Virus record (IMG/VR): IMGVR_UViG_3300024264_000039
Coordinates: 1-57,680 of that record
Direction: 5' to 3' (one strand)
DNA from: a virus
DNA: 57,680 nucleotides
The translations under genes and the position numbers were made by a program. Below, one piece after another: positions 6,801-44,834 of the stretch (its first letter is position 1; each line of letters begins with the position of its first letter). The notes below the pieces were generated by a model that searched no databases, was not told the origin of the DNA, and saw nothing but the letters and a program-made list of their open reading frames with translations.

Positions 6801-8278
6801 GCTCCAGCTACTTTTGCAGGATCAAATTCATAAGCTTTATTTTTCATTACACTAAACACTTGTTTTAAATAAGCGCCACCATTTTCTATAATGGTTGCAC
6901 CAAAACTTTGTATAGCTTCATCTGGATTATTAAATAAAAGTTTACCGTATTTTAAACTAAGATCATTAATTCTAGTTTTTAATTCTTTAGCATTTTTCTG
7001 TGTATTTTTAGGTAGTTGATCAAAAAATTTAAGAGCTTCTGCAGAGTCCTTTAATGTATCTTTGATTCTAGGTGCTTGTATATAATCATATAATAAATCA
7101 TTATTTCTTAAATACATTTGGTCATCAATAGCAGTAATAGGTTGAGGATATTTTAAAGATTTAGTTTTTAAATATTTAGGTAATTCTAATATGTCAGCTC
7201 CTTTAGCTATTTCTTTAAATTGATTATCAATCTGATTCATTATTTTAACCAAACCTTTTTCACTAGCTTGAACAGTATTTTCCCATGCTCTTAAATCTTC
7301 AGCTTGACTGGCAGATATTGGACCATCTGATTTTAATGCATTCTTTGCATTATCTATTTTTTTTAAAAGTTTTTCTTTAAGAGTTGCATTGGCCTCTGTG
7401 CCATAAAATTTCCAAAGTTTAGGATCAGGTAATCCAGAAGCTTTTCTTAACTTAGTAGTAGTGTTATTTAAAAATTCTCCTATACCTCGAGCACCTTTAC
7501 CTACAGCTTCTGTGGCTCCAAGTTTACCAATCGGTTGAAAGACAGCAAAGTTTAAAGGTCTGATGACTACATTCTTTGCAACGGCTGCACCACCTTTTAA
7601 ACCCATTAGTCCATACTTAGCACCTAGTGTTCCAGCAACAGGTAAGGCTGCAGTTAAACCACCACCTAGTACAGTTCCTTCCGCACCAAATTTTAATTTT
7701 TCTTTAAAGTATTCTGCAGCTTTAGCAGAACCTTTTAATTCATCTCCTTTGTAAGCTTCTCCAAAACCTAAAGTTGAACTAAGACTGTTAAGATCTCCAG
7801 GAGTAGATACTGCAAAATCAGTTACTCCACCTAAAGCTCCCCAGTAACCTGCTCTTTTTGCTAGTTCACCACCAGCTCCTAAGTAATCATAAGTATCATC
7901 CGCTCTTCTAAAATTATTTAATTTTACAATTTGACTTGCTTTATTTAATTTTAAAACACCATTAGCAATCTTCGATGCAACACCTAATGGTACACCAAAC
8001 TGTGTTACTACCGAAGTTACATCACCAACAATTGTATCTGTCTCTGGTGTAATGTTATCAAAAAGATTATCGATTGCTGTTATTAAATTTGTATTGGCTA
8101 CAAGATCTATAGGAAGAGCCCCTAGTGAAATTAAACCCTGCACTGCTTGACTAAGACCTTTTGCAATTCCGACTGGAATGTCAGTAAAATAATCTAAAGC
8201 ACCAACTGTTTCAGGTTCAACAGGAGCTTCACTTGATCCAAATAGTGAGTCTGAAAATAAACCTTTGTCCTCGGCCAT
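3887..8278 (-). CDS. Giant internal virion (ejection) protein (1463 aa)
   Basis: Largest gene in the genome. The product is mostly helical, with Lys/Glu-rich segments through residues 300-700 and a long middle and C-terminal helical part. The N-terminal 250 residues include Gly/Ala-rich hydrophobic segments (for example LGAKYGLMGLKGGAAVAKN), typical of ejected proteins that meet the host membrane. No transglycosylase Glu-Ser motif or protease motif was recognised. Last large gene of the structural operon, after two other virion-type proteins; such position and size match the internal core/ejection proteins of podoviruses. Function is inferred from architecture. Confidence 0.88.
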   Translation of the reverse strand: MAEDKGLFSDSLFGSSEAPVEPETVGALDYFTDIPVGIAKGLSQAVQGLISLGALPIDLVANTNLITAIDNLFDNITPETDTIVGDVTSVVTQFGVPLGVASKIANGVLKLNKASQIVKLNNFRRADDTYDYLGAGGELAKRAGYWGALGGVTDFAVSTPGDLNSLSSTLGFGEAYKGDELKGSAKAAEYFKEKLKFGAEGTVLGGGLTAALPVAGTLGAKYGLMGLKGGAAVAKNVVIRPLNFAVFQPIGKLGATEAVGKGARGIGEFLNNTTTKLRKASGLPDPKLWKFYGTEANATLKEKLLKKIDNAKNALKSDGPISASQAEDLRAWENTVQASEKGLVKIMNQIDNQFKEIAKGADILELPKYLKTKSLKYPQPITAIDDQMYLRNNDLLYDYIQAPRIKDTLKDSAEALKFFDQLPKNTQKNAKELKTRINDLSLKYGKLLFNNPDEAIQSFGATIIENGGAYLKQVFSVMKNKAYEFDPAKVAGAKEFFKKNTVPKILNEQPELIQKIIKEKNITQKEAIDLLADSTMSDLKNSLIKSNRNPESLFRLIAGTFKIKDKSSLLDTAKETVKKGKEVSVLTSEGKLIQAGGDLQTVMKKVLDAEDAEVVGKAFLEPLKDYRAAVTDTFLQTAKNVQQKEFFDKFADSALKNGYAFRSLEEARLAGIPTNNLRQITSEFNKDLAMVESKLLKSPLFDGGTTPAGTSGGLYTTPEIANAVKGTEEYLTKMYDIPLYSALMSVKAAGQIGKTVFSPMTQVRNVSTASFFALASGLIGGRVSLTDSFKLMADDIFPGKYISAADVAKKMEDRIARGVVDQNIEVNEIKTILQKAKDGKFTLSALMEAPIVKKAFDLYQGGDNVWKVYADDFYQDALKTAFQWSPRGLKGDAAIRDNIIDWYRTVGKQTDVADELVGSNAKIAQIDEALKTATPATRQSLLNQKENLVQQFKDIKDISAYLVTNTIPTYSKVPAIIKNIRNLPLGNFVAFPAEILRTSAHLIEIGARELTSTNPFIRQMGARRLVGAASVFGGTGAIISEVAEKITGVTSDKMEAFQRSVAPSYQKNSTLIPLTESDDKGNFKYFNFSYTNPYDSMIRPINAVLNAFGNGSLTNQNVSQIVYNALIYDSLTETPGAFTEFFDPFISESIGAGAIADLTIRNGKTKEGRTIYYEQDNAMEVIDASLGHLLAQLEPGASRSARRVWKGVTETFTDYGTTYDSATEIVALMSGLRVEEAKPMDSLPFIVTSYAKDLSNIQNKFSSNIYSPNLDLNGRIGYMAEYLKDNYDAQSRMFRVIKDMEEMGADISDIEDKIGTRLKNKKRLAALMEGEYRAPNISDARLTGLIEKLYDENPLKAVEVEEQFDEALDIFEDLRFDLESIELGEGVGSFEEFINFTLNPPDVSTEGTVPVSGIAQLPNVELPAPIQIGTGVNASLFANNTNAGTQFNLLPNAAKFDKLFPLG

Positions 8279-29252: not shown

Positions 29253-29272
29253 TGTGGGGCCGAAGCCCCACA
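29253..29272 (-). terminator. UUCG-loop terminator between structural genes
   Basis: On the minus strand TGTGGGGC-TTCG-GCCCCACA forms an 8-bp stem with a UUCG tetraloop, followed by ATATTAGTTTT. It lies 11 bases past the stop of the 29284-29754 gene. Likely an intrinsic terminator or a partial one that grades expression of head and tail genes. Confidence 0.75.
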
Positions 29273-29283
29273 CTAATTATTTA

Positions 29284-29754
29284 TTATAAATCTGCTGCGT
29301 CTTGAACAGAATTATTTTGAATGTATAATACAGTAACTGTACCTACACCAGTTGTACCATCACCAGTTGTACCTGAAAAATCAGCTAAAACTTGAATGTC
29401 AGTTGTACCAACATTAGTTGCTTCTGTATCTAAAACACCGTGAGTAGTTCCTACTGCTTGAACACTTTGTGCATTAATAAATGCATCAGCGTCAGCTATT
29501 GTTCCTACTGAAACACTAGATGCTGCTCCATCGTTATTAGCTGTAGTAACATTTAAAATTACATCTACGATTTGTGAGTTTGCTGGAATTACTGCACAAA
29601 CTTGATTTAAGTGTGATGCACCAGTGATATCAACCTTTACAGACTGAGCCATAGTTACAAAACCTACGTTTGCAATGTTAGTTCCAACAGTTGTTCCTGT
29701 TGTATTTGAAATCGTTCCCGCTTTTACTGGTCCCGAAAAAGTAGTATTTGCCAT
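29284..29754 (-). CDS. Structural protein (156 aa), head or tail
   Basis: Val/Thr/Ala-rich beta protein with VKVDITGASHLNQVCAVIP and QIVDVILNVTTANNDG, a pattern resembling small decoration or fibre proteins. A 166-base gap (29755-29920) lies upstream, with an AT-rich stretch that may hold a promoter, and a terminator follows it: the gene may be expressed as a unit of its own. Good AGGAG ribosome site. Confidence 0.78.
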   Translation of the reverse strand: MANTTFSGPVKAGTISNTTGTTVGTNIANVGFVTMAQSVKVDITGASHLNQVCAVIPANSQIVDVILNVTTANNDGAASSVSVGTIADADAFINAQSVQAVGTTHGVLDTEATNVGTTDIQVLADFSGTTGDGTTGVGTVTVLYIQNNSVQDAADL

Positions 29755-29920
29755 GATTATTCTCCTAGTTAAATTCTACATAGTCTCTAGGCCGTCGACT
29801 ATACTGCGTCCATGCAGAAAATTAATATATTGTATAGTGTATTTTTTATATACTAGATTTGAGTAGAGTGCAAGAGATCCTACAGTGTGGAGTGGAATTT
29901 TCCAACGATATAGCTTTTTA

Positions 29921-30130
29921 TTAAGTAGCTACAGAAACTTGAGGAGCAGCGCCTTCAACGCTATTCTGCCTGTGGGCAATAGCTGCTTCTTCCAGCTTGA
30001 TCTTTGTGATGACTTCTTTAACCTTGTCATCAATTCTGACCATTTCAAGAGTGTACCTATTATTATCTAGGTGCTCCTGTTCCCACTTCAACTCCAAGGA
30101 CCTTTTTGCTTTGTATAGGTCTTGTATCAT
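29921..30130 (-). CDS. Small helical protein (69 aa) overlapping previous gene
   Basis: Charged helical product (MIQDLYKAKRSLELKWEQEH, then VKEVITKIKLEEAA). It overlaps the end of the 30063-30320 gene by 68 bases in another frame, which is long for this genome, but the start is preceded by AGAGG at good spacing. Unknown role in the head region. Confidence 0.65.
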   Translation of the reverse strand: MIQDLYKAKRSLELKWEQEHLDNNRYTLEMVRIDDKVKEVITKIKLEEAAIAHRQNSVEGAAPQVSVAT

Positions 30131-30320
30131 TTATAACCTCTTCAAAAGTTATTCTATTAATCCTAGAATCATAATTTTTTCCAAGATCTTCCCATTTTAT
30201 ACTATTTTCTCCTAGCTTGTCAAGTATAGCTAGTTCTACAGATTTTGCATTATCTTCAGCTAATATTTCAAATTTAGCATGATGATCGTACGCAAAGATA
30301 TTAATGAGAAGTTGTTTCAT
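30063..30320 (-). CDS. Small protein after capsid terminator (85 aa)
   Basis: Start placed at ATG 30320 (MKQLLINIFAYDHHAKFEIL), with an AAGAAAG site upstream; an in-frame upstream start would lie in the terminator stem. The middle is LAILDKLGENSIKWEDLG. No family recognised. It is the first gene after the capsid terminator. Confidence 0.65.
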   Translation of the reverse strand: MKQLLINIFAYDHHAKFEILAEDNAKSVELAILDKLGENSIKWEDLGKNYDSRINRITFEEVINDTRPIQSKKVLGVEVGTGAPR

Positions 30321-38904: not shown

Positions 38905-39040
38905 TTATTTTCTCCAATTTATCTTGTTTATATGCTTTTGATTGATTAATCAAGCCTTGTGGATTGGGACCACTAAGAGGTGGTATTTGATCTCTTCTTA
39001 CATAAGGCATATTTTCAGTAAGTGTTGGGTTCTTTTTCAT
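38858..39040 (-). CDS. Small basic protein between terminase and portal (60 aa)
   Basis: Product MKKNPTLTENMPYVRRDQIP and on, ending in a basic NRNKKNG. It overlaps the terminase stop by one base and the portal start by 47 bases. The long overlap weakens it, but small genes at this place are common in marine podoviruses. Confidence 0.55.
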   Translation of the reverse strand: MKKNPTLTENMPYVRRDQIPPLSGPNPQGLINQSKAYKQDKLEKINGRHRQSINRNKKNG

Positions 39041-40548
39041 TACCAGTAAAATTTCTTTTTTCTTTTAGGCTGTTGTTCTTCTTGATAATCTTCAGGGTGA
39101 TCTATAAATCCGCCTTGTCTATACCTTAACAGAGCCTGTGTTGTACTGTCAACTAAATCGTCATGATCACCGTAAGGAAACGCAGCACATTCTTCAACAA
39201 GTTCTTGAGCAAACTCTTGATCGAGAGGTGCCCAAATTTGTCCGGCTTCAAAAAGTGGAGAGACTGCATTTACTCTTGCAACTTTATCTTGACCTTTACT
39301 CGGTGTAAAATTCATTGCAGGAATTCCCATCTGTCTGAGTTCATACATCAAAGGTAGTCCTGATGCTTTTGCTTCAATGATAACTGTTTCAGGATTCCAA
39401 TACTTATATTGCTCGAGTGCTACACGACGAAGTTCTGGAAACTCTAAACGTTCCTTATAAGAATCTAATAATATTAATTGACGAGGCGAGTCTTCATTAG
39501 GACGAAAAACTCCCCAGGTAGTAATAGCAGAGTAATCTGCAGTTTCTTTTTTAAGATACGCTGTATCATAACTTTGAATTGTGTGTTCGATGTGAGGCAT
39601 ATGTTTAGACTCCCAATTTTTCCACCACTCCCTTTTAATGAGAGCTCCTTCTTCTGAAGTTGGGTTCTGCATATACTGCGCGTTCCACTTTGCAACACCA
39701 GCAGAAGCTTTGACAGATTCGAGGTCCTCGAGCTTCCAATATTCAGGCCAGACTGGTTTACCTGTAGGTAAGATCGCAGGGAACTCTACCACTTCCCATT
39801 GATCCGCGTTCTCGTTGCTTTGTGCGTTTAACAATTTTTGTGTTAAATCTTTTGTAGACCATCTTGTCATAACGACAACAATACGACCTCCAGGTTGAAG
39901 ACGTTGTCTTGGTCCTGAAGTATACCACTCGTATGCTTTATCAAATGCCGAAGGTGAACTTACGTCTTGCTCTGAATGTGGATCATCGATGATGAGTAGA
40001 TCAGCACCTCTCCCGGTCACCGCACCTTGGACACCGACTGCAAAGTATTCACCACCATCGGAGGTATTCCAACGTCCTGCAGCTTTACTATCTTCTTGGA
40101 GTCGTGTATTAAAAATTTGTTGATACTCTTCTGAGTCAATTAAATGTTTTGCTTTACGTCCAAAGTTTATAGCAAGCTCCGCTGTGTGAGTTGCTTGAAT
40201 AATTTTTAATTTAGGATTCTGCCCGATCATAAAAGCAGGGAGAAAGAACGACGCAAATTCAGATTTAGTATGCCTAGGTGGCATGTTTATAATTAGACGG
40301 GTCAATTCTCCGGTTGCCAATCTATTAAATTTATCTGCTATGGTTTGATGATGGGACCCCTCTATAAAATCTGGCCACATCTTTTTTACAAAAGATAAAA
40401 AATTAGTTTTAACTTGCTTAAGTTCTTTTCTTTGATGTCGTTGTATAATCTGTATCTTGAGCTTTCTTCGCTCAATAGGATCTTCTATTTTATTAATATC
40501 TTCAACAGTTAGCATACATTTAAATATGGGTGGTAAAGTATTATACAT
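39040..40548 (-). CDS. Terminase large subunit (502 aa)
   Basis: DNA-packaging motor. ATPase motifs: PPRHTKS (Walker A-like, near residue 90) and LLIIDDP (Walker B); RNase H-like nuclease acidic residues at SYDTAY, VIIEAKASG and DHDDLVDS, in order. Belongs to the Terminase_6-like group. The start is at ATG 40548; the in-frame TTG at 40557 is less likely. No good ribosome site is visible. Its partner small subunit lies 3.8 kb away on the other strand (44355-44834). Confidence 0.92.
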   Translation of the reverse strand: MYNTLPPIFKCMLTVEDINKIEDPIERRKLKIQIIQRHQRKELKQVKTNFLSFVKKMWPDFIEGSHHQTIADKFNRLATGELTRLIINMPPRHTKSEFASFFLPAFMIGQNPKLKIIQATHTAELAINFGRKAKHLIDSEEYQQIFNTRLQEDSKAAGRWNTSDGGEYFAVGVQGAVTGRGADLLIIDDPHSEQDVSSPSAFDKAYEWYTSGPRQRLQPGGRIVVVMTRWSTKDLTQKLLNAQSNENADQWEVVEFPAILPTGKPVWPEYWKLEDLESVKASAGVAKWNAQYMQNPTSEEGALIKREWWKNWESKHMPHIEHTIQSYDTAYLKKETADYSAITTWGVFRPNEDSPRQLILLDSYKERLEFPELRRVALEQYKYWNPETVIIEAKASGLPLMYELRQMGIPAMNFTPSKGQDKVARVNAVSPLFEAGQIWAPLDQEFAQELVEECAAFPYGDHDDLVDSTTQALLRYRQGGFIDHPEDYQEEQQPKRKKKFYW

Positions 40549-40557
40549 GATTAACAA

Positions 40558-40772
40558 TGCAAATCAAACTATATAGGGTAGGTCTGGGACCCCTATAATT
40601 TTAGGGGGTATTCGCGTAAACATAAGAAGTTCGAATTTGGATATAGTTCCTTTAGGGTCCCCTTTGGGTGGGTCCCGCCCACATGCTCTTCTCTATGAGC
40701 TATGCAGTTTGTGCATAGGACAATGTAGGATAGGCCATGCAAATACTGCATGGCCATTCTTCCTTAACGAAG
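40558..40772. other. Non-coding segment with four consecutive hairpins
   Basis: This 215-base gap upstream of the terminase gene holds no gene but four inverted repeats: CCCCTA/TAGGGG (40590-40607), GTGGGT/GCCCAC (40668-40682), CTATGCA/TGCATAG (40700-40718) and GGCCATGCA/TGCATGGCC (40733-40755). Spacing is short, so an RNA from either strand would fold into a row of stems. Possible leader RNA, packaging or replication site. Confidence 0.7.
40668..40682. repeat. GTGGGYCCCGCCCAC hairpin, copy 1
   Basis: GTGGGT-CCC-GCCCAC, followed by ATGCTCTTCTCT. First of six copies of a GC-rich hairpin confined to the hub. Here the stem has a T-G closing pair; others have C-G. Confidence 0.85.
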
Positions 40773-41132: not shown

Positions 41133-41261
41133 TGTATTCCTTTCGTTAAGTTAATTTTAATTTAGCAGAATATCCTATATTGTAAATAATTAATTTGGCA
41201 CTTTAGTGCCTGTGGATAACTTTGGCACAAGATGTAGTGCTGCCTTTTTTCTTTTTTTAGG

Positions 41262-41276
41262 GTGGGCCCCGCCCAC
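41262..41276. repeat. GTGGGYCCCGCCCAC hairpin, copy 2
   Basis: GTGGGC-CCC-GCCCAC with perfect 6-bp stem, preceded by a long T-rich tract and followed by ATGCTCTTATCT. A member of the hub repeat family. Confidence 0.85.
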
Positions 41277-41301
41277 ATGCTCTTATCTATTTTTTTCTAG
41301 T

Positions 41302-42236: not shown

Positions 42237-42273
42237 CCCCTAAAAAACATTTATTTTTATTTTTTTTATATGG

Positions 42274-42288
42274 GTGGGCCCCGCCCAC
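42274..42288. repeat. GTGGGYCCCGCCCAC hairpin, copy 3
   Basis: GTGGGC-CCC-GCCCAC, perfect 6-bp stem, directly preceded by a T-rich tract (ttatttttattttttttata) and followed by ATGCACTTACCA. Confidence 0.85.
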
Positions 42289-42318
42289 ATGCACTTACCA
42301 CAGCTGCAAGCTCAAAGG

Positions 42319-42333
42319 GTGGGTCCCGCCCAC
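42319..42333. repeat. GTGGGYCCCGCCCAC hairpin, copy 4
   Basis: GTGGGT-CCC-GCCCAC followed by ACGCTCTTCTCTGA and then CCGCGGG. It shares this downstream sequence with copies 1 and 6, so the repeated unit is longer than the hairpin. Confidence 0.85.
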
Positions 42334-42355
42334 ACGCTCTTCTCTGACCGCGGGT

Positions 42356-42441: not shown

Positions 42442-43056
42442 ATGAAAGAAAAAATATTAAACACGGCCCACGCTTGGCAAATAGTAGGCGGCCTTAGCAA
42501 GCCTGGAAAAATGCCTGGATGGTCAATAGGTATACCCGCTAAAGAGTGCAACACGGGCGGCAAGCTGCAGGATAAAGAAGGCAGCGTCTGCAATGATTGC
42601 TACGCTTTAAAAGGTTGTTACGTTTTTAAAGTTGTACAAGATGCACAATATAGAAGGCTAGCAGCTATTAAAGACCCGCGATGGGTCGACGCCATGACAA
42701 TGCTAATTAATTCAAAAAAGCCTAATATTTTTAGATGGCACGATTCGGGTGATGTCCAAGACCTGGAACACCTTCAAAAAATTTATGCCGTCTGTAGGTT
42801 AACGCCTACTAGAATGCATTGGATGCCAACTAAGGAAGCATGGGTCAAGAAATATTTAAAATATAAGCCTGACAATTTAACAATTAGATTGTCTTCACCA
42901 ATGGTGAACCAGGGACCAATTAGCAGCTGGCCCAATACTTCAACAGTAGTTACAACTAAAGCAACATGTCCAGCACCTGAGCAGGGCGGCAAATGTTTAG
43001 ATTGTAGAAAATGCTGGAACCCAAAAATTAAAAATATTAGTTATGGCAAGCATTAG
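42442..43056 (+). CDS. GP88-like Cys-motif protein (204 aa)
   Basis: Contains SVCNDCYALKGCYVFKVVQ, a Cys-rich motif typical of the phage gene product 88 family, then FRWHDSGDVQDLEHLQKIYA and a C-terminal cluster CPAPEQGGKCLDCRKCW. The Cys pattern suggests a metal or Fe-S cluster; the biochemical activity of the family is unknown. The gene is rightward, opposite to the late block, and appears leaderless: no Shine-Dalgarno and a -10 box 6 bases before the ATG. Base composition is a little more GC-rich than neighbours. Confidence 0.85.
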   Translation: MKEKILNTAHAWQIVGGLSKPGKMPGWSIGIPAKECNTGGKLQDKEGSVCNDCYALKGCYVFKVVQDAQYRRLAAIKDPRWVDAMTMLINSKKPNIFRWHDSGDVQDLEHLQKIYAVCRLTPTRMHWMPTKEAWVKKYLKYKPDNLTIRLSSPMVNQGPISSWPNTSTVVTTKATCPAPEQGGKCLDCRKCWNPKIKNISYGKH

Positions 43057-43297
43057 ATCTAAGCATAACAATCTATTAAACTATTTCATTTGCGATCACA
43101 GGCATCTATCTAAGGCCTACGTCCGCAAGTGTGAAAAATTTTTTGCTGCGGCTGGTCCGTTGGAAAATGATATACGGAAACCGAGATGTAGCCACGAGGT
43201 CGCAAAGCCTCTAGGAACCAGACTTCGGACGCAGCAGAAACAGAGGGCTGGTAGTATTCCACCAGCCCTCAAGCAACATGAAAGAAGGAAAATATGA
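43043..43297 (+). CDS. Doubtful small basic protein (84 aa), possibly structured RNA instead
   Basis: An open frame starts inside the last codons of the GP88-like gene and ends with an ATGA overlap to the next gene, which favours coupled translation. The product is basic (MASIRSKHNNLLNYFICDHR and on) without recognisable fold. The same DNA contains long-range complementary segments and a perfect 10-bp hairpin, so an RNA function is an alternative. Confidence 0.4.
   Translation: MASIRSKHNNLLNYFICDHRHLSKAYVRKCEKFFAAAGPLENDIRKPRCSHEVAKPLGTRLRTQQKQRAGSIPPALKQHERRKI
43112..43270 (+). ncRNA. Candidate structured RNA element
   Basis: GC-rich island in AT-rich surroundings. Pairings: CGTCCG (43120-43125) with CGGACG (43226-43231), or instead TGCTGC...GTCCG (from about 43144) with CGGAC-GCAGCA (43226-43236); TCCGT with ACGGA inside; and a terminal stem GAGGGCTGGT/ACCAGCCCTC (43243-43252/43261-43270, loop of 8). 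The competing pairings look like a switch. Downstream is the ribosome site of the zinc-ribbon gene. Inference from base pairing only. Confidence 0.4.
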
Positions 43298-43479
43298 GAT
43301 GGGAAATAATGCTCGGCAATAAGGGTGAAATAAATGAATGCTTAGATTGTGGCCACAAGTCTAAAAATTGGGCTGAACGGGTCGCAAGCAAGGGCAATGA
43401 AAATGATGAGATGGAACCCGACGGAACCAACAAAGTATTTTGTCCAAAATGTAAATACTACCATTACTACTGTGCCTAG
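43294..43479 (+). CDS. Zinc-ribbon mini-protein (61 aa)
   Basis: Two Cys pairs, CLDCGHKSKNW and CPKCKYYHYYC, give a classic zinc ribbon. Starts with ATGA overlap to the preceding frame and has GAAAGAAGGA upstream. Third gene of the short rightward unit. Might bind nucleic acid or partner RNA polymerase; no family recognised. Confidence 0.7.
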   Translation: MRWEIMLGNKGEINECLDCGHKSKNWAERVASKGNENDEMEPDGTNKVFCPKCKYYHYYCA

Positions 43480-43503
43480 TAATGGTAGGAATAAAAAATA
43501 AGG

Positions 43504-43518
43504 GTGGGTCCCGCCCAC
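43504..43518. repeat. GTGGGYCCCGCCCAC hairpin, copy 5
   Basis: GTGGGT-CCC-GCCCAC, 54 bases left of parS. Followed by AAGCACGCACCAC, a diverged version of the usual downstream sequence. Confidence 0.85.
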
Positions 43519-43572
43519 AAGCACGCACCACAACCCACAAGTGTAGTCCACAGGCAACAGGCCACAGGTTCA

Positions 43573-43588
43573 TGTTTCACGTGAAACA
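43573..43588. promoter_or_regulatory. parS: parS: canonical ParB-binding centromere site
   Basis: TGTTTCACGTGAAACA is the textbook bacterial chromosomal parS sequence, here perfect in all 16 bases and extended to an 18-base palindrome (43572-43589, A...T). ParB binds it, loads as a CTP-dependent clamp and spreads. The phage shows no parA or parB gene, so the expected reader is the host ParB. It lies mid-way between hairpin copies 5 and 6 in a non-coding segment, so it is not a by-product of coding. Confidence 0.93.
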
Positions 43589-43610
43589 TTTTTTTCTTTT
43601 TTTTCCTTGG

Positions 43611-43625
43611 GTGGGTCCCGCCCAC
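43611..43625. repeat. GTGGGYCCCGCCCAC hairpin, copy 6
   Basis: GTGGGT-CCC-GCCCAC preceded by a T-rich tract and followed by ACGCTCTTCTCTGA, then CCGCG and TTTGGCC...GGACATAGGATAT. This downstream layout parallels copy 4. Confidence 0.85.
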
Positions 43626-43687
43626 ACGCTCTTCTCTGAGCCGCGACACTTTGGCCATTGACCTTGGACATAGGATATTGTAGGACG

Positions 43688-44059
43688 CTAAACCTTTTGT
43701 AGAAATTTAAAGATTGACATCATGCCCACGGCACAAGGTTCGGCAGAACCGATCACAAGATCACGGATCTTGGATCCTTCATAAAGTTTTATGTCTCTCT
43801 GACAGAGGCCCTTGGCCATGATGAAACTATTGTGCGGGTGCTTGATATGAAAGCCAATTTGATGTGGAGAGAAGCGAATTTTTTTAACCAAATTTAACTT
43901 TAATTCGATAGTGAAAAAGTGGCCAGAATTATTATAAACCAATAGATCAGGAGTCCCGTGTGCAGCACTATTTTCCACGCGTGTAAATGATAATTTGCAA
44001 TTATTTTTAATATTGAACGCTTTAATTTCATGCCAAAATTTAGTCTCTCCCTTAATCAT
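43688..44059 (-). CDS. PD-(D/E)XK nuclease, VRR-NUC/resolvase-like (123 aa)
   Basis: Compact nuclease core: ENSAAHGTPDLLVY supplies the catalytic Asp, FFTIELKLN the ExK, and RFSPHQIGFH the following Gln-helix, in the order of the VRR-NUC and Holliday-junction-resolvase-like families. A phage of this size would use it for branched DNA resolution before packaging. The gene lies alone beside the parS segment; no clear ribosome site is seen. Confidence 0.8.
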   Translation of the reverse strand: MIKGETKFWHEIKAFNIKNNCKLSFTRVENSAAHGTPDLLVYNNSGHFFTIELKLNLVKKIRFSPHQIGFHIKHPHNSFIMAKGLCQRDIKLYEGSKIRDLVIGSAEPCAVGMMSIFKFLQKV

Positions 44060-44354: not shown

Positions 44355-44834
44355 ATGGGAGTTCCTAAAAGACTTACAGAGAAACAAATTAAATTTGCTA
44401 ATCTAATCGTAACAGAAGAAGGTCGAAAGACTGATTCTGAATGTGCTATTGCTGCAGGTTATAAACCGGATGGTGCTTACGTCTGTGCAAGTAGACTTCA
44501 AAACCCATCAATGTATCCTTTGGTTGCTCAATACATTGGAAGACTCAGAGCAGAGAAGTTAAAAAAATATGACATCACTTATGAAAAGCACCTGGCAGAA
44601 TTAGGTAAAATTAGAGACGAAGCTAGAGAAAGTAAAGCCTGGAGTGCTGCAGGTAACATGGAAGTAGCTAGAGGTAAAGCTGCAGGGTTTCAAAATAATA
44701 CTAATTTACACTTACATAAAAACTTAGATAACGTGGATGAATCTGAGTTAGACAAAGAATTAGAGAAAGCATTAAAGAACTTTAAACCAATTATTGATTC
44801 TGATGCAGAAGTGATTGAAGAATCTAAAGACTAA
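44355..44834 (+). CDS. Terminase small subunit (159 aa)
   Basis: N-terminal helix-turn-helix of terminase small subunits: RLTEKQIKFANLIVTEEG, then SECAIAAGYKPDGAYVCASR; central oligomerisation helices and an acidic C-terminal tail (DESELDKELEKALKNFKP) that would contact the large subunit. It recognises the packaging site, often within or near its own gene. Leaderless start. On the opposite strand and 3.8 kb from the large subunit, which is unusual. Confidence 0.87.
   Translation: MGVPKRLTEKQIKFANLIVTEEGRKTDSECAIAAGYKPDGAYVCASRLQNPSMYPLVAQYIGRLRAEKLKKYDITYEKHLAELGKIRDEARESKAWSAAGNMEVARGKAAGFQNNTNLHLHKNLDNVDESELDKELEKALKNFKPIIDSDAEVIEESKD

Follow-up and report, generated by a model that had tools for sequence, protein, structure and literature searches.

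How does a phage come to carry a perfect copy of a bacterial chromosomal centromere when no gene for a protein that reads it is found on its genome, and what reads the site instead? The window, that is, the whole stretch of DNA analysed here, is a 57.7-kb IMG/VR virus record, and one short segment of it (Table 1) is an exact 16-mer of the chromosomal-type parS, embedded in a perfect 18-bp palindrome, as the initial annotation of this DNA had described. Under an i.i.d. model using base composition alone, 1.9 × 10^-5 copies of the 16-mer are expected in 57.7 kb, and the annotation was right to call a chance occurrence very improbable. No further match with two or fewer mismatches is present in the window, and two matches with three mismatches, at 8207 and 17508, look like products of chance. 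The site lies in non-coding DNA between two hairpin repeats, also as annotated: it is contained in a 208-bp gap between convergent open reading frames (43294-43479 on the plus strand and 43688-44059 on the minus strand). This gap is inside what we call the hub, the region from the gene of the terminase large subunit (TerL) to that of the small subunit (TerS). The GC-rich hairpin repeat GGGTGGG(T/C)CCCGCCCACA has six copies (at 40665, 41259, 42271, 42316, 43501, and 43608), all of them within the hub; they may be terminators or signals for packaging or replication. Two more strong hairpins of 12 pairs each (43243-43270 and 43458-43488) are found close to where small hub genes end and are terminator-like on the minus strand.

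Table 1. Features of the hub and of the parS site in the window.
Feature	Position	Strand	Remark
parS-type site TGTTTCACGTGAAACA	43573-43588 (palindrome 43572-43589)		exact match; core kept in relatives; identical to SAR11 host parS
T-rich run 3' of the palindrome	43589-43604	+	poly-A instead in relatives with exact parS
Hairpin repeat AGGGTGGGTCCCGCCCACA, upstream of parS	43501-43519	+	near-invariant in 32 distinct relatives
Hairpin repeat TGGGTGGGTCCCGCCCACA, 20 bp downstream of parS	43608-43626	+	near-invariant in 32 distinct relatives
Hairpin repeat	42316-42334	+	in relatives L476 and L493, parS adjoins a hairpin of this hub part instead
Hairpin repeat	42271-42289	+	
Hairpin repeat	41259-41277	+	
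Hairpin repeat upstream of TerL	40665-40683	+	in a sister clade, parS occupies this gap, at 82 bp from the start of TerL
Terminase small subunit (TerS), hub border	44355-44834	+	PHROG 51, E 2e-9; Pfam Terminase_2 below cut-off
Terminase large subunit (TerL), other hub border	39040-40557	-	PHROG 38, E 2e-108
GP88-family protein, in hub	42442-43056	+	Pfam PF17338, E 3.5e-25

A simple answer would be that the phage has its own ParABS partition system, like phage-plasmids do. This possibility was rejected. The ParB_N profile (PF02195), at E<=1, matched nothing in the window, in three named relatives, or in six longer IMG/VR relatives, while 11 of 14 control genomes were positive in the same search, and tblastn of the window with SAR11 ParA and ParB queries gave nothing significant. 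The statement on ParA in the window is that of tblastn with one SAR11 ParA query. The view that the phage has neither gene is thus borne out, and the annotated proposal that ParB of the host is the probable reader gains support, as the site is of the chromosomal type and no reader of the phage's own was met. Host ParB is the only plausible reader of this parS.

Who is the host? The portal protein of the window shares 69% identity with its counterpart in Pelagibacter phage HTVC027P, against 68% with the one in 023Pt_psg01 and 54% with the one in HTVC023P, and because of this resemblance to pelagiphages we infer that the uncultivated phage infects SAR11, the most common bacteria of the ocean. 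Among 142 Pelagibacteraceae genomes collected via a 16S probe and scanned, 112 have the 14-bp core GTTTCACGTGAAAC exactly once, and the reversed control is found in none. In all 15 genomes examined for its location, the host site is situated about 1.5 kb from parB; in L338/L358 it lies inside the start of rsmG, which is followed by parA and parB. When 16 genomes lacking the exact site were checked, six were also without a ParB match, probably because this region is absent from their assemblies. The phage sequence is the parS of this host lineage. It is to be noted that the SAR11 ParBs retain R173 and G201, the pair of residues which sets the parS preference of ParB (PMC7383237). Since the phage and host sites are identical and the host ParBs have parS-type contact residues, binding of host ParB to the phage site can be inferred, and this lytic-type virus of SAR11 very probably recruits the ParB of its host. 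SMC is encoded in nine of ten host genomes tested. In one SAR11 sub-clade (G006, G007, G142, G143, G145, G147, G150, G153, and G155), the contact residues of ParB are changed at positions 162 and 170, and degenerate TTTCACGTGAAA sites are found instead; ParB and parS may have co-evolved there. Phage relatives L176, L177, L179, L180, L195, and L199 carry TGTTCCACGTGAAAAA, and host G141 has TGTTCCACGTGAAACA; parS variants of the phages may track the ParB types of their hosts.

If the site serves the phage, it is expected to be kept among relatives, and its absence from close relatives sharing the hub had been named beforehand as the outcome that would speak against a function. Such absence was looked for in 30 distinct loci that contain TerL as well as TerS and hence a complete hub, with up to two mismatches allowed. 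Instead, a single site is present in 26 of the 30, being exact in 21; no locus has a second one, and the reversed control gives no match. The remaining four, in which any match has more than two mismatches, all have a TerL of less than 78% identity. Wherever a hub-complete relative has the site, it lies between TerL and TerS, and in 21 of the 26 the nearest hairpin repeat is 9-50 bp away. Conservation is concentrated on the site itself: among 32 distinct sequences with parS on the TerS side, conservation reaches 97-100% at 12 of the 16 positions, against a mean of 69% in the 30-bp flanks, and the loop ACGT is invariant. This conservation, together with the low expectation in the window and the occurrence of the exact 18-mer in 198 of 50,697 phage records against none for the reversed 18-mer, makes chance a practically negligible explanation.

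What is conserved, then, is the site but not its place: one site is kept in 26 of 30 loci, but its place within the hub differs and more distant clades are without it. The initial annotation had anticipated neither of these two points, nor the presence of exact parS in many unrelated phages. In the TerS relatives parS is found about 770-784 bp upstream of TerS. Its offset from TerL varies from -82 bp in a sister clade, through -2.0 and -2.2 kb in L476 and L493, to -2.4 to -4.2 kb. On the TerL tree, six changes are needed among four position classes, absence being counted as one class, although many inner branches are weakly supported and the exact number of parS moves is uncertain accordingly. 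In the HTVC027P clade, eight of 16 loci have the site; its first position is C in every case, some copies are decayed, and the site of HTVC027P itself is CGTTTCACGTGAAACA. In the 023Pt clade only one of 20 loci has it; and six other pelagiphages scanned are without it. Because one copy is kept while its location in the hub shifts, parS is under selection in part of the group, and what is favoured there is the presence of one site and not its position. Its benefit is not universal, since the site is missing from most of the 023Pt clade, half of the HTVC027P clade, and four hub-complete loci.

Could such a palindrome be retained for a reason unrelated to ParB? One candidate is an intrinsic terminator hairpin whose stem merely equals parS. 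RNA of the window does fold into a 7-bp stem there, followed by a run of T, but the run is poly-T 3' of parS in some TerS relatives and poly-A in others, and exact sites with poly-A or other flanks in several relatives make no terminator on either strand, which rules it out as the conserved function. In addition, the stem is poor in G-C pairs, a terminator scan did not list the palindrome, a terminator does not need an invariant ACGT loop, and 16 bases are identical to the host centromere. We regard this explanation as highly improbable, while a secondary, weak terminator role in the genome of the window is possible. An operator for some regulator of the phage or host that is not ParB would suit a site in intergenic regulatory space. 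Still, the sequence matches exactly the host parS, which stands once per SAR11 genome beside parAB, and its spacing to the flanking genes is not kept among relatives, so that an operator of this kind deserves very little credit. As the place varies and the flanks swap poly-T for poly-A, the site cannot be a terminator passed on by descent or an operator tied to one position.

We therefore return to ParB of the host. It is likely, judging from the comparisons above, that a functional parS is kept by selection in a lytic, HTVC023P-type clade of pelagiphages, on which SAR11 ParB is loaded and from which it spreads over the hub. In this mechanism, host ParB would load as a CTP clamp onto the phage parS and then spread from it over the region between TerL and TerS. 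If ParB spreads over kilobases, this would account for the freedom of parS to stand at different places within the hub.

What does the phage gain from it? Four uses had been proposed at the annotation stage: episomal persistence, positioning or condensation of DNA, silencing, and a decoy. Persistence as a lysogenic episome is the least likely of the four, since publications on the cultured relative HTVC027P describe it as lytic and regard temperate infection as excluded (PMC11066056, PMC12753301). A 58.7-kb relative, G170 (IMGVR_UViG_3300030102_006349), has about 350 bp repeated at both of its ends, parS included; as these ends overlap, it is probably a complete genome which, once circularised, contains parS a single time. 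A defined genome end near parS was also considered, as L130, L132, and L138 stop at the same base, but these sequences are near-identical to one another and the common end is taken to be an assembly break.

By analogy with the action of host Spo0J on phi29, the benefit may lie in the positioning or organising of the phage genome by ParB, ParA, and SMC inside infected cells, and this is a tentative preference on our side. It might also be that the many parS copies of a replicating phage strip ParB from the host origin and halt host segregation. Against the single parS of SAR11, a few dozen phage copies would already be a majority; there is also a precedent in SGI1, whose parS copies destabilise the IncC helper plasmid (PMC10954446), and parS occurs even where segregation seems pointless, in very small phages like Spiroplasma phage 4 with its 4.4-kb genome. 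A pure decoy, however, is expected in several copies and at any location, while the pelagiphages keep exactly one and always in the hub. One copy per genome thus argues mildly against a pure decoy, and titration as the benefit is conceivable but doubtful. The third idea is a timer: ParB spread over the hub would repress transcription of nearby packaging and late genes by host RNA polymerase on the incoming genome until replication dilutes ParB. HTVC027P requires host RNA polymerase (PMC12753301), promoters adjoining some parS sites of Pseudomonas aeruginosa are described as repressed by ParB (PMC5521831), and in one clade parS is only 82 bp upstream of TerL. Furthermore, all sites of the hub-complete relatives are in the hub, which has only 26% of the non-coding DNA of the window. 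A location as constant as this speaks mildly in favour of a local effect, though the share of the hub is still a quarter of the non-coding space. On the other hand, the distance between parS and TerL ranges from 82 bp to more than 4 kb, and silencing would be of no obvious help to the small phages that also carry parS. We take the timer to be about as doubtful as titration. Organisation, titration, and silencing may also act jointly.

How does this case compare with known systems? The closest precedent is phi29, whose DNA is brought into spores by Spo0J, the ParB of Bacillus subtilis (Meijer et al., 2005, as referred to in PMC9437464). Our scan of phi29 found four parS-like sites, each with a single mismatch, most of them within genes. 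Both are phages without ParB that carry parS sites and whose handler is proposed to be the host segregation protein, and phi29 is virulent. The difference is that the sites of phi29 are several and mostly intragenic, against a single one in the pelagiphage that is intergenic and movable; the benefit for phi29 is entry into the spore, and SAR11 bacteria do not form spores. SGI1, whose parS-like sites are read by the ParB of IncC plasmids, is likewise a reader-less mobile element that borrows from, and competes with, the ParABS of another replicon, but its victim is a plasmid and not the host chromosome, it has two sites, and it adds a helper protein, Sci (PMC10954446). With the chromosomal ParABS of SAR11 (rsmG-parA-parB) the phage shares the identical 16-bp site, which is matched by a ParB with parS-type contact residues, but the phage has only the site in cis, parA and parB not being found. 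Phage-plasmids and extrachromosomal prophages, such as P1 and those of mycobacteriophages (PMC7157519), also bear a centromere on phage DNA but encode their own partition proteins, whereas no ParB domain was detected in the pelagiphage. The pelagiphage parS would then work like the phi29 and SGI1 cases, the new points being a non-sporulating host and a single movable site. Our literature search found no article on parS in pelagiphages lacking ParB. Exploitation of chromosome segregation by lytic phages is seldom considered, and here an abundant group of ocean phages retains one copy of the host centromere, of which the host itself likewise has just one. Isolates are available for study, namely HTVC027P on HTCC1062. 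Exact sites are also present in phages of more tractable laboratory hosts, B103 of Bacillus subtilis and DSS3P8 of Ruegeria pomeroyi DSS-3.

Is this borrowing limited to pelagiphages? The 198 records with the exact 18-mer, some of which are unannotated fragments of unchecked viral nature and many of which are near-copies, include phi29-like phages, microviruses, and phages of Lactobacillus, Gordonia, Microbacterium, and Roseobacter. Ten phages were sampled from these records and from an earlier similarity search; their hosts are Bacillus, Lactobacillus, Butyrivibrio, Enterococcus, Gordonia, Microbacterium, Glutamicibacter, Spiroplasma, and Ruegeria, and in each of them between one and four sites are present when up to two mismatches are allowed. 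None of the ten has a ParB over the family cut-off, and among 48 IMG/VR records that contain an exact parS, three have a ParB domain over the cut-off. The 198 records, and the lack of ParB in all ten phages sampled, suggest that borrowing of host ParB by phages is common and largely overlooked. It might even be, though this is speculative and we would not count on it, that lytic phages of many bacterial groups acquired the exact host centromere independently so as to load host ParB onto their genomes, and that the single movable parS beside the packaging and late-gene hub of pelagiphages turns host ParB into both a competitor for the one centromere of the host and a sensor of copy number that gates late transcription or genome organisation. 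Bacillus phage vB_BcoS-136 (L452) has four exact parS within 1 kb, at 29256-30261 of its record, like a small centromere cluster.
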